Assembly (NCBI RefSeq): GCF_017094485.1
Contig: NZ_CP064786.1
Coordinates: 434,001-498,000 of the forward strand
Source of the DNA: Natranaeroarchaeum sulfidigenes
GTDB lineage: Archaea; Halobacteriota; Halobacteria; Halobacteriales; Natronoarchaeaceae
Direction of reading: 5' to 3'
DNA: 64,000 nt
How positions within the stretch are numbered: position 1 is the stretch's first letter; the number at the start of each line of letters is the position of its first letter. The notes beneath the pieces were generated by a model. That model saw only the letters and a list, made by a program, of their open reading frames with translations, did no database searches and was not told where the DNA came from. Both the position numbers and the translations under genes were made by a program. Shown piece by piece: positions 8,550 through 20,250 of the stretch.

Positions 8550-9572
8550 CTACTGCGATGCCGTCGGCGACTCGACGAGCGAGTACTCTCGGTCCCGACT
8601 CGTCCCTTCAGCTTCGAGAAGGTTGTACTGGGCCATCTTCGAGAGGTACGTACGGACAGTCCGTTTCGTTCGCGCGTCTTCGACTTCCGCAGTATAGCGC
8701 TCGTGGATCTCACTCGGTCCGACCGGGCCGTACTTGTTGACGATCTCGTAGACGACTTGCTGGTGTGGGGTCAACGAGTCGAGGCTCTTCTGTCTGATCT
8801 GTGCGCGGGCATCACCGGCGGCGTCCTGCAGTAAGTCGTTGGTGATCCGGTCGTGATTTTCGCGAGCAGCCGTGCTGGCTGCGGTCCGAAGCATGCCGAT
8901 CGCCAGCCGGGCGTCGCCAGCGGCCGCATCCGCGATGTGATAGAGCTGGTCGTCGGTGATGATATCGGGTTCGAGACCCCATTTCGCACGGGCGGTCAGG
9001 ATGTCGAAGAGCTGGTCGTTATGGTACTTGTCCATACGGACGTGCTCGCTGGATCGCAGGCGACTCACGAGCCGGTCGTCGACACGGCTGTACAACTGTT
9101 CTTCCTCGTTAGCAATACAGATGACCGCGAACTGCGGGAGGCTGTGTAGATCGTAGAGTACTCCCGGATCTTCGAGCTGGTCGACCTCGTCGAGGATGAT
9201 GACAGCCCGCGGTCCGTCGTACTGTTGGAGACGTTCGATCAATTCGTCGTGTGGCGTCGACTGGCGATGGATGTCAATCGTCTTGCCGAGATCATCGAGA
9301 ATCTGGTACAGCGCCCGAAATCGGGTGTAGTTGCGCCAGCAGTTGACGTAGGTGCCTTCGACGTCAAGGACTTCCTCGCGGAGCCGTTCGGTGACGAACT
9401 TTGAGAGACAGGTCTTTCCGGTTCCACTGGGTCCGGTGACGATGGCAGTGTCCGCGGGCTCACCATTCGTGATTGGTTCGAGAACACTGGAGAGATGATT
9501 GACCTCGGCATCGCGATGCTCGACTTCTCGCGGGACAAAACCAGCACGGAGGACGCGAGCATCACGGATCAT
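8550..9572 (-). CDS. orc: Orc1/Cdc6 replication initiator (340 aa)
   Basis: This AAA+ initiator has Walker A G-P-S-G-T-G-K-T at residues 47-54 and Walker B V-I-I-L-D-E-V-D at 124-131, then a lid domain (DAAAGDARLAIGMLR, the sensor-2 region) and a C-terminal winged helix (HERYTAEVEDARTKRTVRTYLSKM). The length suits the shorter haloarchaeal Cdc6 group. The family binds origin repeats and loads MCM. It is transcribed away from the 374-bp intergenic region that also feeds a second orc gene, a typical arrangement for a haloarchaeal origin. The ATG at 9572 starts MIRDARVLR, just ahead of a P-R-E-V-E-H-R-D-A-E box usual in this family. The 8301-8549 spacer holds nothing recognisable. Confidence 0.92.
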   Translation of the reverse strand: MIRDARVLRAGFVPREVEHRDAEVNHLSSVLEPITNGEPADTAIVTGPSGTGKTCLSKFVTERLREEVLDVEGTYVNCWRNYTRFRALYQILDDLGKTIDIHRQSTPHDELIERLQQYDGPRAVIILDEVDQLEDPGVLYDLHSLPQFAVICIANEEEQLYSRVDDRLVSRLRSSEHVRMDKYHNDQLFDILTARAKWGLEPDIITDDQLYHIADAAAGDARLAIGMLRTAASTAARENHDRITNDLLQDAAGDARAQIRQKSLDSLTPHQQVVYEIVNKYGPVGPSEIHERYTAEVEDARTKRTVRTYLSKMAQYNLLEAEGTSRDREYSLVESPTASQ

Positions 9573-9743
9573 CTTTGTTCGATACCCTGGTTTTTTGTCT
9601 GGTCACAAAAGTGTGTCTGGGAGGTTTCCGGAATTGACCACACGTGAGTGCTTTCAGTGGGTAGAGTGTCTCCCTCGTACATTTTGTTTGTGGAACCGGC
9701 TAGTTTCCGGAAACGTCCGACGTTCGGCAATGGGATCTACGAA

Positions 9744-9771
9744 AGTGAGAGAGTACGTTTCGTGTGCTTTT
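9744..9771 (+). repeat. Origin-box-like repeat, copy 1
   Basis: A 28-bp box beginning AGTGAGAGAGTAC and ending TTTCGTGTGCTTTT. It is matched at 27 of 28 positions by the inverted copy at 11161-11188, so the two lie as inverted repeats on either side of the orc gene 9947-11143. Confidence 0.75.
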
Positions 9772-9804
9772 CTTCGGATAATGGACCTACTTTGAGGGGC
9801 CAAA

Positions 9805-9825
9805 GAGTACGTTTCGTGTGCTTTC
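9805..9825 (+). repeat. Origin-box-like repeat, copy 2
   Basis: A direct repeat of the last 21 bases of copy 1 with a single difference in the final base. It is spaced 54 bp from copy 1, close to five helical turns, so the same face of DNA would be presented to bound Orc proteins. Confidence 0.75.
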
Positions 9826-9914
9826 AGTAATCTTGTCGGACAAACCATCGCCGTGCAGCGGGATACGAAGAGCCAGGAGAGCAACGAATAGCAAACGAAA
9901 CTAACAACATCGGA

Positions 9915-9923
9915 TTTTAAATA
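9915..9923 (+). promoter_or_regulatory. TATA-like box of the 398-aa orc gene
   Basis: TTTTAAATA is centred about 27 bp before the ATG at 9947, which suggests a leaderless or nearly leaderless transcript. It lies just downstream of the origin boxes, so Orc binding could affect its own expression. Confidence 0.55.
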
Positions 9924-9946
9924 GTCTGACAAACACCTTCTAGTAA

Positions 9947-11143
9947 ATGGGCAATCCATTCGGCGGGATGATGGACACGATCTTTGCGGACAAGGAGGTG
10001 CTGACAGAGAGCTACCAACCGGAGACTATCCTAGAACGAGAGGCTGAGATCGAGGAATATCGCTACGCGTTACAGGACGTTCTGTTTGGAAGAGAGCCCG
10101 AAAACGTAATGCTGTACGGGAAAGCCGGCCTCGGAAAGACGGCGGTAACGACCTACATTCTGGAGGCACTGCAAACGGAGGTCGAAACCCGGGACGAAGC
10201 TGACGAACTGTACACCCATGAGATCAACTGCAACGGCAAGACCGTCTTCATGGTCGTTAGACAGCTTGTGAACACACTACTCCCTGCCAATGCTAGCGAA
10301 TTTCCAAAGCGAGGGCTCGGAACTGGCGATGCCTTCACCGAGCTCTACGAGCAACTCGATCGACTCGGGGGGACACACTTGATGGTCTTCGACGAGATTG
10401 ACCACCTCGACGACGCCGACACGTTGCTCTACGAACTCCCACGAGCACGCGCCAACGGCCACATTACCAATGCACAGGTGGGTATCATCGGGATCAGCAA
10501 CAACTACACGTTCCGGACGTCGCTCTCGCCGAAAGTGAAGGACACGCTGATGGAGACTGAAATCTCCTTTAGCCCGTACAACGCGAACGAACTGGGTACC
10601 ATCCTGCAGGATCGAGCAGAACAAGCGTTCGCCGAAGACGCCTGTGATCAGTCCGCAATACGTCGAGCCGCGGCGCTTGCCGCACAGGATATGGGGAACG
10701 CTCGGCAGGCGATCGATTTGCTTCGGGTCGGTGGGGAGGTTGCACTACGTGAGGAAGCCGATTGCGTCACGGACGACCACATCGGAGCGGCACGAGAACG
10801 AGTGCAGCGCGGTCGGCTACAAAACCGAATCCGTGAGCAGACCATCCACGACCAGTACATTCTGGAGACGATCGCCTATCTCGAAGAGGGCGACGAGACA
10901 CCCGTGCGCTCGAAAGAAATTTATGATCTCTATCAAGACGTCGCCGCCGAATGCGGAGACGATCCACTGACGACGCTGAAAAGTATTCAGGATCACCTCT
11001 CGGATCTTCACATGCTCGGGTTCCTTCAGCGGTTCGAGCGCAACGAGGGACTGAGCGGCGGGCAGTATTACGAGTACGAACTTGATCTCAACGCCGATAT
11101 CGTCATCGAGACGCGCAAAACGATCGAGGAGACCAGGCTGTAG
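9947..11143 (+). CDS. orc: Orc1/Cdc6 replication initiator (398 aa)
   Basis: This AAA+ initiator has Walker A G-K-A-G-L-G-K-T at 58-65 and Walker B L-M-V-F-D-E-I-D at 145-152, a sensor region (GISNNYTFRTSLSPKVKDTL), a lid helix with MGNARQAIDLLR, and a C-terminal winged helix (RSKEIYDLYQDVAAECGDDP...LSDLHMLGFLQRFERNEG). It belongs to the longer Orc1 type common on haloarchaeal plasmids and secondary origins, and would bind the flanking boxes and load MCM. Boxes in inverted orientation lie on both sides (9744-9771 and 11161-11188), so gene plus boxes form a 1.45-kb unit. Two decayed relatives of this unit occur at 12.6 and 19.7 kb. After the gene, 11189-11390 shows nothing recognisable. Confidence 0.93.
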   Translation: MGNPFGGMMDTIFADKEVLTESYQPETILEREAEIEEYRYALQDVLFGREPENVMLYGKAGLGKTAVTTYILEALQTEVETRDEADELYTHEINCNGKTVFMVVRQLVNTLLPANASEFPKRGLGTGDAFTELYEQLDRLGGTHLMVFDEIDHLDDADTLLYELPRARANGHITNAQVGIIGISNNYTFRTSLSPKVKDTLMETEISFSPYNANELGTILQDRAEQAFAEDACDQSAIRRAAALAAQDMGNARQAIDLLRVGGEVALREEADCVTDDHIGAARERVQRGRLQNRIREQTIHDQYILETIAYLEEGDETPVRSKEIYDLYQDVAAECGDDPLTTLKSIQDHLSDLHMLGFLQRFERNEGLSGGQYYEYELDLNADIVIETRKTIEETRL

Positions 11144-11160
11144 GATGGGCCCTCGCCGTC

Positions 11161-11188
11161 AAAAGCACACGAAATGTACTCTCTCACT
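11161..11188 (-). repeat. Origin-box-like repeat, inverted copy downstream of orc
   Basis: The reverse complement of 9744-9771 with one difference (GTACATTTC instead of GTACGTTTC). It starts 17 bp after the orc stop codon. A perfect 21-bp duplicate of its core lies at 12742-12762. Confidence 0.75.
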
Positions 11189-11390: not shown

Positions 11391-11894
11391 TCACTCGCCA
11401 TCGCAACTACACCGCGAATGAGCGTCTGCGAACTCCACGACATACGCGTGTACTTCCTCAGCCAAATCATGCATGCCGTATGCCAAATCTCGCCCCGGGC
11501 GATCGATATCATAATATATTCTGGCACGGTGTTCCGACCGGAATGAATCAATCCGTCCGGGCACACCAGTATCAGAAAACACTCCGCGTCCGTCAATGTC
11601 TTCGAACACCTGCTCGTGCGCCCGGAAATCCGATGACTCAGCCGCAGTCTGGTCCACCAAATAAAATTGGAATGATCGCTCGATCGCGTTGAACGACAGT
11701 TCGGTCAAACTCACATAATTATTCGTGCCGCGCCGCAATTCTCGGCACGTCCCCAGCATTGCACACGCTTTCCCCAGTTGCACGTCACCGTCTGTTTGCT
11801 GCCACGACAACGAATGCTGCACCGGGCCGGTCTCACCGTCAGCCAATAACGACTCAACGCAAGCAACGGCATCCACAACATCCTCAAGTCCCAT
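11391..11894 (-). CDS. HEPN-domain protein (toxin-like partner of MNT)
   Basis: This 167-residue helical protein has the general layout of minimal HEPN domains: helices with a LTELSFNAIERSFQFYLVD segment and a final YGMHDLAEEVHAYVVEFAD helix. A putative active region is F-R-S-E-H-R-A-R-I-Y-Y-D; an exact R-x4-6-H spacing is not evident. HEPN proteins are often RNases neutralised by MNT nucleotidyltransferases that add AMP or nucleotides to them. It overlaps its upstream partner by 11 bases (11884-11894), so the two are coupled. The downstream side is an ordinary spacer with no clear terminator. Confidence 0.7.
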   Translation of the reverse strand: MGLEDVVDAVACVESLLADGETGPVQHSLSWQQTDGDVQLGKACAMLGTCRELRRGTNNYVSLTELSFNAIERSFQFYLVDQTAAESSDFRAHEQVFEDIDGRGVFSDTGVPGRIDSFRSEHRARIYYDIDRPGRDLAYGMHDLAEEVHAYVVEFADAHSRCSCDGE

Positions 11895-12573
11895 TTTCGA
11901 ACACCTCGCGTTTCACCGCCTGCAACGCAGCACTGTCGTGAATCGTAATTCCTTGCGTGAGCACATCACGGATACGGTCGTGGCTGGGCGCAGAATCTCG
12001 TGTCTCCACCACGATATGCGGTTCGTATCGGTCTCCATCGAATCGTTCCGATGTGATTTCGTCCTCGATCGTGTGCGCATGACGCTGGGCTGCCATTCGA
12101 TCACCCGGAACGACAACGAATATATCGATATCGCTGGCACGGTCTGCATCGCCGCGCGCGATGCTTCCGAACACCACTATCCCTGCGTCGTCATCGATTC
12201 GTTCCAGAATCCGCTCACGAACTGCTCGCACCGGTGCGTGGTACTCGGATTGAGGGAGTGACGTAACTCGATCCTCGCTACGAACAAGTTTCGACGCGTT
12301 AATTTGCACGGCATTCGCCCGGCCGTCGCGGTCGACAGTTACCGCACCGAGCTGTTCAAGCGAGACCACAGCTGCGTTCACGTTTCCCATACCTTTCCCG
12401 GTGAGGCGGTGGAGCTCCCGGTTCGTGAACGTTTCACCCGGATTATCCGTGAGCAACTGCAGGATTTCCGGGACTGCGTTGTGGGCGAACGCATCACGAT
12501 CACCAACCGGGACCGGGATGCAGATGTGCGTCCCGTCACACGTACTGCTTGATTGAACTGACCTATTGTTCAT
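11884..12573 (-). CDS. wHTH-fused MNT nucleotidyltransferase (antitoxin-like)
   Basis: This 229-residue protein has an N-terminal winged helix (PEILQLLTDNP...FTNRELHRLTGKGMGNVNAAVVSLEQLGAV, residues about 35-85) and a minimal nucleotidyltransferase domain with G-S-I-A-R-G-D-A-D-R-A-S-D-I-D-I-F-V (about 134-151), matching the GSxxRG...SDIDL catalytic pattern. MNT proteins of this type modify or bind HEPN toxins. The extra DNA-binding domain suggests that the antitoxin also represses its own operon. The following HEPN gene overlaps by 11 bases. Directly upstream (12574-12770) lie an orc remnant and an origin-like box. Confidence 0.82.
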   Translation of the reverse strand: MNNRSVQSSSTCDGTHICIPVPVGDRDAFAHNAVPEILQLLTDNPGETFTNRELHRLTGKGMGNVNAAVVSLEQLGAVTVDRDGRANAVQINASKLVRSEDRVTSLPQSEYHAPVRAVRERILERIDDDAGIVVFGSIARGDADRASDIDIFVVVPGDRMAAQRHAHTIEDEITSERFDGDRYEPHIVVETRDSAPSHDRIRDVLTQGITIHDSAALQAVKREVFENGT

Positions 12574-12595: not shown

Positions 12596-12741
12596 AACTT
12601 AAAACCAGAGGGTGTGACGGTTCCTCCAGCGGTTCGAATGAAACGAAGGATTGAGCGGCAGGCAGTACTACGAATACGAACTGGATCTCAACGCCGAGAT
12701 CGTCATCCAGATTGGAAAGCGATCGAGGAGACCATGCTGTG
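12596..12741 (+). pseudogene. Decayed 3' end of an orc1/cdc6 gene
   Basis: The DNA closely copies the last ~45 codons of the 9947-11143 gene. The frames give L-Q-R-F-E-(stop), then LSGRQYYEYELDLNAEIVIQ and K-R-S-R-R-P; the intact gene has LSGGQYYEYELDLNADIVIE. Internal stops and frame changes show it is not functional. The copied region runs on into the box at 12742-12762, so gene end and box were copied together. The rest of 12574-12988 holds that box, a hairpin at 12803 and a TFB-like scrap. Confidence 0.8.
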
Positions 12742-12762
12742 AAAAGCACACGAAATGTACTC
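12742..12762 (-). repeat. Origin-box-like repeat beside the orc remnant
   Basis: Identical over 21 bases to the downstream box of the intact orc unit (11161-11181). It is followed by a diverged AGTGAG/CAGTGG flank. It stands in the same place relative to the orc 3' end as in the intact unit. Confidence 0.75.
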
Positions 12763-12802
12763 ACTTTCTGTCAGTGGGAGACTGGTTGCAGTGTGTCAGT
12801 TC

Positions 12803-19644: not shown

Positions 19645-19686
19645 TTTACGTTTGAGTAGTCAGACATTTTCGCTGCGAAAGGTAGA

Positions 19687-19707
19687 GAGTACAATTCACG
19701 CGCTTTT
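19687..19707 (+). repeat. Origin-box-like repeat, diverged
   Basis: GAGTACAATTCACGCGCTTT matches the 9751-9771 box at 16 of 21 positions and lies just before an orc fragment. With the box at 20127 it forms an inverted pair 440 bp apart. Confidence 0.55.
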
Positions 19708-19744
19708 ATATGGGGCGCTCGTTTGACCGTCGACCTGCTTCAGG

Positions 19745-20126
19745 TCTGTGGGAAGCAACGCGTGGAAGAGTGACACGCGCCGACTGAAAAACCGAATCCA
19801 CAATCAGAAGCTCTGGGTCCGGTACATTTTGAGGACGATTTCTTATCTCGAAGAGCGCGGCGAGACACCGGTCTACTCGAAAGAGATTTACGATCTGCAC
19901 CAGAATGCCGACGCCGAATGCGAGGACGATCGGTTGACGACGTTGAAAAGCATTTAGGATCATTTCTGAGATCTCCAAATGCTCGGGTTCCTCTAGTGGT
20001 TTGAGTAAAACGAAGAGGGAGAGGGGCGGGCACTACCACGAGTACAAACTGGATTTCAAGGCGGAGATCGTTATCGAGACACGCATATCGATCGAAGAGA
20101 CGACATCGAGAGGAGAACTCTTTGTT
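19745..20126 (+). pseudogene. Decayed, internally deleted orc1/cdc6 unit
   Basis: The region copies the last ~120 codons of the 9947-11143 gene, in mixed frames: RLKNRIHNQKLWVRYILRTISYLEERGETPVYSKEIYDLH and, after a stop at 19956, fragments of the LGFL...YELDFKAEIVIETR end. Stops and frameshifts show it is dead. The AAA+ part is missing. Because both boxes are kept (19687-19707, 20127-20147), the arrangement is box, gene 3' third, inverted box: an internally deleted version of the intact unit. The remainder of 19645-20380 holds a hairpin at 20251 and no gene. Confidence 0.8.
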
Positions 20127-20147
20127 GGAAAGCACAAGAAACGTACT
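20127..20147 (-). repeat. Origin-box-like repeat, inverted
   Basis: The reverse complement matches the 9805-9825 box at 20 of 21 positions (core GTACGTTTCTTGTGCTTTC). It closes the decayed unit on its right side. Confidence 0.7.
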
Positions 20148-20250
20148 CCCGCACAATAGTAGTAGTGGAGACTAGTTGGATCCTACACAGGAAGCGGGAA
20201 TCAATACTGCGGGTGTGAAACTGTACATATATTGGGGTAAAACAGGTTTT

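Follow-up and report, generated by a model that had tools for sequence, protein, structure and literature searches.

Introduction

In Haloarcula hispanica, the oriC2 origin associated with cdc6E has 11 downstream origin recognition boxes (ORBs), designated oriC2D, which restrain the origin as judged by genetics, likely via titration of Cdc6E (PMC3936714). In Halobacterium NRC-1, the autonomously replicating sequence (ARS) containing orc7 consists of a 33-bp inverted repeat flanking an AT-rich region and orc7, all of which are required (PMC1906834). Movement between genomes is known for haloarchaeal replicator-initiator pairs (PMC3528665, PMC4010727), and the string of the haloarchaeal ORB is normally G-rich (PMC3936714). 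Here, we analysed a locus in a 64,000-nt stretch of the Natranaeroarchaeum sulfidigenes genome (contig NZ_CP064786.1, positions 434,001 to 498,000; hereafter the window, whose numbering is used throughout), in which an orc1/cdc6 gene lies between 28-bp inverted repeats. The original prediction for this locus, made from the sequence of the window, left two readings side by side, namely origin boxes flanking an initiator gene and a small self-copying unit with terminal inverted repeats (TIRs). We conclude that the locus is very probably an orc1/cdc6 initiator gene with its own recognition boxes, i.e., a replicator-initiator cassette. This kind of structure is real, conserved and ordinary; its unusual part is the box.

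The locus resembles oriC2-cdc6E in having boxes upstream of an Orc/Cdc6 gene and further boxes directly downstream, and differs from it in the number of the latter, which is 11 in oriC2D, one in the window and one to six in orthologues (PMC3936714). The likeness to cdc6E is one of architecture. With the orc7 ARS, the locus shares inverted repeats around an orc gene, whereas orc7 belongs to another Orc clade, has one 33-bp repeat pair instead of an array, and is described there with no mention of decayed copies (relics) such as those present here (PMC1906834). The origins catalogued by Wu et al. 2012 are comparable in the linkage of Orc with cognate ORBs, occasional two-sided ORBs, movement between genomes and mosaic neighbourhoods (PMC3528665).

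The orc Gene and Its Boxes

The arms of the inverted repeat lie at 9744-9771 (+) and 11161-11188 (-), are 28 nt each and complementary at 27 of 28 positions, exactly as originally described, and are separated by 1389 nt. The sole open reading frame (ORF) between them is an intact orc1/cdc6 gene at 9947-11143 (+). Its 398-aa product contains an AAA+ ATPase domain, a Cdc6 lid and a C-terminal Cdc6_C winged helix (Pfam), and scores 406.9 bits on TIGR02928, the cut-off of which is 181.3. The best match in the PDB was 2v1u, "Cell division control protein 6 homolog" (E 1.2e-54), and the Cdc6 homologues there align with the protein over almost its full length. Judged by these matches, the ORF encodes a full Orc1/Cdc6 initiator. 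The genome carries one intact copy of the cassette. Of the 392 Halobacteria genomes sampled, about 80 had a match to this Orc family at roughly 55% identity or more.

The view that the pair encloses orc and nothing else holds as far as ORFs are concerned, but it overlooked two further boxes. The left arm (upstream box U1, ORB-like, extended form GAG-N-GAGAGAGTACRTTTCGTGTGCTTT) is followed 54 bp further on by a second box in the same orientation, U2, at 9804-9824 (+). A degenerate reverse box at 9890-9909 (-), reading AGCAAACGAAACTAACAACA on the plus strand, lies directly against the promoter and recurs in the orthologues when their promoters are aligned, so that U1 and U2 together with it form an inverted pair upstream of orc. 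Since U2 lies inside the repeat pair, the layout is two boxes upstream and one inward-pointing box downstream (D1, the right arm) rather than one terminal pair. When the 20-bp core GAGTACRTTTCGTGTGCTTT was searched at up to three mismatches, five sites were found in the window, as compared with none in 100 dinucleotide shuffles. A pattern search of the 3.04-Mb genome yielded these five sites and no others, all confined to a 10-kb stretch, with a chance expectation of none.

Boxes in Orthologous Cassettes

We compared 37 distinct orthologues with 66-100% identity, taken from a genome-contig collection and from the same family and class, and covering many families. Boxes pointing inward were present on both sides of the gene in 36 of the 37, confirming that the box brackets this orc type in related haloarchaeal genomes. 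Their number varied from one to eight upstream and from one to six downstream, at a spacing of mostly about 45-70 bp; a same-genus relative (G006, 96% identity) has eight upstream and three downstream, and G007 (82% identity) has one and five, respectively. Around full-length genes, 215 of 219 sites pointed inward (96/99 upstream sites forward, 119/120 downstream sites reverse).

The box also co-occurs with the gene. At one mismatch or fewer it was detected in 84 of the 392 genomes of the class, and a reversed-pattern control in none (0/392); it was present in 35 of 48 genomes with an orthologue of at least 66% identity, as compared with 49 of 344 others. Divergence of the boxes was correlated with divergence of the Orc proteins, with a Mantel r of 0.49 for the whole protein and 0.57 for its winged-helix end, and 0 of 2000 permutations gave a correlation as high. 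Co-occurrence, inward bracketing and co-divergence, together with the ORB-like layout described below, argue for origin boxes flanking an initiator gene.

At four loci (L199, L213, L215 and L217), we observed boxes with no orc piece detectable in the fetched flank, where they form a triplet spaced at 102 bp, a pair separated by 56 bp, and inverted pairs with 159 bp between them. These are possibly cassettes whose entire gene was lost.

A Box Without a G-String

The canonical archaeal ORB core served as the reference for the layout of the box. In reverse complement, the box reads AAAGCACACGAAAYGTACTCTCTC, with a CAC..GAAAC core followed by a 3' string that points outward from the centre; by this comparison, it matches an archaeal ORB in layout and polarity. 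The position of the G-string is taken by a CT-rich TACTCTCTC, and 8 of 205 boxes contain four consecutive G or C. These boxes thus lack the G-string that defines halophile ORBs in Wu et al. 2012 and that is present in the predicted ORBs of H. hispanica (PMC3528665).

Two other orc genes of the same genome were informative. One (L022) is flanked on either side by G-string boxes, and the other (L008, around 614 kb) has TTTCACCGGAAA boxes on both sides with no long G run, indicating that not every haloarchaeal box has a G-string. As both are two-sided, boxes on both sides are ordinary architecture in this organism, and the difference lies in the type of box. Plasmid homologues with 55-62% identity carry related boxes, some with ACCCC at the place of the G-string; Haloferax mediterranei pHME132 (L156) and a Haladaptatus plasmid (L159), at 55-56% identity, have ACCCC or TACCC there, which suggests a graded series of box types. 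In a literature search for the box sequence, none of the matches listed was an archaeal paper.

Genomic Context, Relics and the Question of Mobility

When approximately 30 loci were compared, only orc and its boxes were common to distant lineages; neighbours were shared within small groups of loci only, and no conserved neighbour gene that could act as a partner was found across distant lineages. The cassette has therefore occupied many genomic contexts over evolution, which fits known haloarchaeal origins and is not evidence for transposition. A viral origin of the cassette was considered and rejected, as a viral contig collection contained neither a relative of the Orc nor an exact box, and three phage matches were about 25% identical.

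The two ends of a Halopenitus persicus contig (G066:C22, 121,574 bp) overlap exactly over 95 bp, and the contig is likely circular. The cassette Orc is the only Orc detectable on it by tblastn, as expected if the cassette replicates the contig. The cassette lies at the cumulative GC-skew maximum of this contig, not at the minimum, so that skew does not support origin activity there; we gave this no weight, skew being weak evidence on a small and probably rearranged replicon.

Two relics lie downstream of the cassette. The first, at 12619-12765 (+), has been reduced to the ~40 final codons of an orc of the same family, with one stop, and a right box at 12742-12765 (-). In the second, at 19680-20155 (+), a decayed left box (19680-19707, 21/28) is fused directly to orc codon ~248; codons ~248-396 follow, with several stops, and a right box is present at ~20129-20148 (-). 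The stops are in frame in both relics, both group with the orc of this genus, and they are alike for about 20 nt past the right box, indicating that the boxes are not the ends of the copies.

An inverted pair around a single gene is what insertion sequences and other TIR elements look like. A small mobile element that ends in 28-bp TIRs and is copied whole, with decayed copies as its traces, would explain why the pair holds orc alone, why two relics of that lineage, one of them bracketed by boxes, are found within 9 kb, and why orc and the boxes alone are common to distant lineages. However, the variable number of boxes and the internal copies leave no fixed ends, and the unit contains no transposase. 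Target-site duplications, which had been proposed as a check, were not visible by inspection at 9743/9744 or 11188/11189. Furthermore, the cassette occupies the same site in the same-genus relative G006, where about 9.8 kb to its left is largely collinear with the window, and genomes carry one to few family members and no dispersed intact copies. The relics, cited originally in support of copying as a unit, do exist and bear boxes, but their similarity extends beyond the boxes; a series of separate cassettes, or deletion after related replicons had integrated by homology, fits better than the copying of a 28-bp-bounded unit. Of the findings named beforehand as contrary to the prediction, boxes with no detectable orc occur at some loci, and the copies share no precise outer ends. 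The TIR interpretation is largely refuted, and we regard it as highly improbable.

Collinearity with G006 stops at the right box (D1), and G006 resumes, partly rearranged, with window sequence from 41.7 kb on, so that G006 lacks roughly 30 kb or more of the window, both relics included. We noted that this island (11188-41700), whose left edge is the right box of the cassette, contains, among other sequence, low-GC DNA carrying a polysaccharide-synthesis gene. The break of collinearity at a box, followed by a long segment punctuated by two box-bearing relics, would be expected if the boxes were recombination or partition sites, such as seams of plasmid integration, with Orc binding being incidental. 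Yet repeat arrays invite recombination anywhere, and the fixed inward polarity and the co-divergence with Orc are better explained by Orc binding. We consider such a role for the boxes barely plausible.

Proposed Function of the Cassette

In all but a few orthologues, a reverse box of the AGCANACGAA type stands immediately 5' of a conserved TATA/BRE-like element, which reads GGATTTTAA here (9912-9920, +) and GGTTTTAA in most orthologues; the reverse box fits a simple pattern in 32 of 37. Over the 80 bp that precede the start codon, the GC content drops to 39-46%, as compared with about 59-60% 500 bp upstream, and this dip coincides with the promoter.

We propose that the Orc most likely binds the boxes via its winged-helix domain, as suggested by the comparison of orthologues and by the orc7 ARS (PMC1906834). 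The forward upstream boxes and the reverse promoter box would form an inverted set around the AT-richer stretch, acting as both origin and operator. DNA opening and helicase loading would take place at the AT-richer stretch, and the Orc probably represses its own promoter as well. By analogy with H. hispanica oriC2D (PMC3936714), the boxes downstream, whether single or in an array, which point inward, most likely titrate the Orc and restrain firing; as the window has a single downstream box, titration would be weak at this locus. The cassette probably spreads as cargo of plasmids and integrated replicons, not by transposition, and the two relics are probably what is left of other cassettes of this lineage in the adjoining island.

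Several points weigh against a replicator-initiator cassette. The G-string, which these boxes lack, is essential in H. hispanica oriC1 (PMC3936714), and some predicted haloarchaeal origins are inactive (PMC4595724). The Mantel correlation includes shared ancestry, and the 95-bp overlap of the H. persicus contig falls at the box repeat, so that its circularity is likely, not proven. Finally, the boxes could be merely autoregulatory operators. In a broader form of this alternative, they would control transcription of their own or neighbouring genes, through this Orc or another regulator, and have no role in replication. The conserved reverse box abutting the TATA element is in line with this, as are the Orc1 paralogues that act as transcription regulators, among them Orc1-2, described as a non-initiator regulator (PMC9738581). 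However, boxes lie past the stop codon in nearly all orthologues, which argues against autoregulation as their sole function, there is no conserved neighbour to regulate, the cassette Orc is the sole Orc of a likely circular contig, and the layout matches experimentally tested origins. We therefore consider purely transcriptional boxes unlikely and prefer the replicator-initiator cassette.

Biased Retention of the 3' End

Unexpectedly, relics elsewhere resemble those of the window in that the 3' end and the downstream boxes are kept and the 5' part is lost. Such relics were found at L068, L069, L073, L075, L076, L116, L122, L186, L188, L189, L206, L207, L208 and L214, in addition to the two in the window, and begin at residues from ~77 to 358. 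One fragment (L193, residues 216-352) has lost both ends. We searched 80 genomes with two paired queries, the first and the last 123 residues of the Orc. Among family-level matches to the C-terminal query, at least 14 had no N-terminal partner, and no N-terminal match (E <= 1e-30) lacked a C-terminal one in these 80 genomes. The genomes were picked mostly for holding a box, which may favour box-adjacent pieces; such a choice should, however, favour upstream and downstream boxes alike. We regard the 3' bias as a lead.

One conceivable, though doubtful, explanation is that chromosomes selectively keep relics consisting of the winged helix and the downstream boxes as initiator-titrating or plasmid-incompatibility loci. 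Devoid of the ATPase half and usually of the promoter, these remains of invading origins would serve as a defence against replicons using the same Orc. Several relics have dN/dS values of 0.02-0.16, similar to those of full-length controls (0.03-0.24). We do not claim that they are expressed as mini-proteins, as recent truncation explains these values equally well and L076 has a stop codon immediately before the kept codons.

Neighbouring Genes

To the left of the cassette, a short Orc-like AAA+ gene at 8550-9572 (-) encodes 340 aa, is divergent from the cassette and is kept in the same-genus relative. Its product falls just short of the cut-off of TIGR02928 and gave no match to Cdc6_C, and so may be a regulator. 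Between the cassette and the first relic are two overlapping genes (11391-12573, -). One encodes a nucleotidyltransferase with weak matches to the MntA antitoxin and to Hailong HalB, and the other (167 aa) gave no family match; a toxin-antitoxin-like or defence pair is possible from these matches.

Implications

The analysis removes one candidate from the mobile elements. The catalogue of Wu et al. 2012 accepted only ORBs with a G-string (PMC3528665), and boxes of the present type would be passed over; origins of this Orc family would be missed wherever origin catalogues of halophilic archaea are filtered on that string. The consistent two-sided arrays offer a multi-species test of downstream boxes as a general brake on origin firing. 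If confirmed, the 3'-biased relics would record past integration of replicons into these genomes, and perhaps resistance to replicons.
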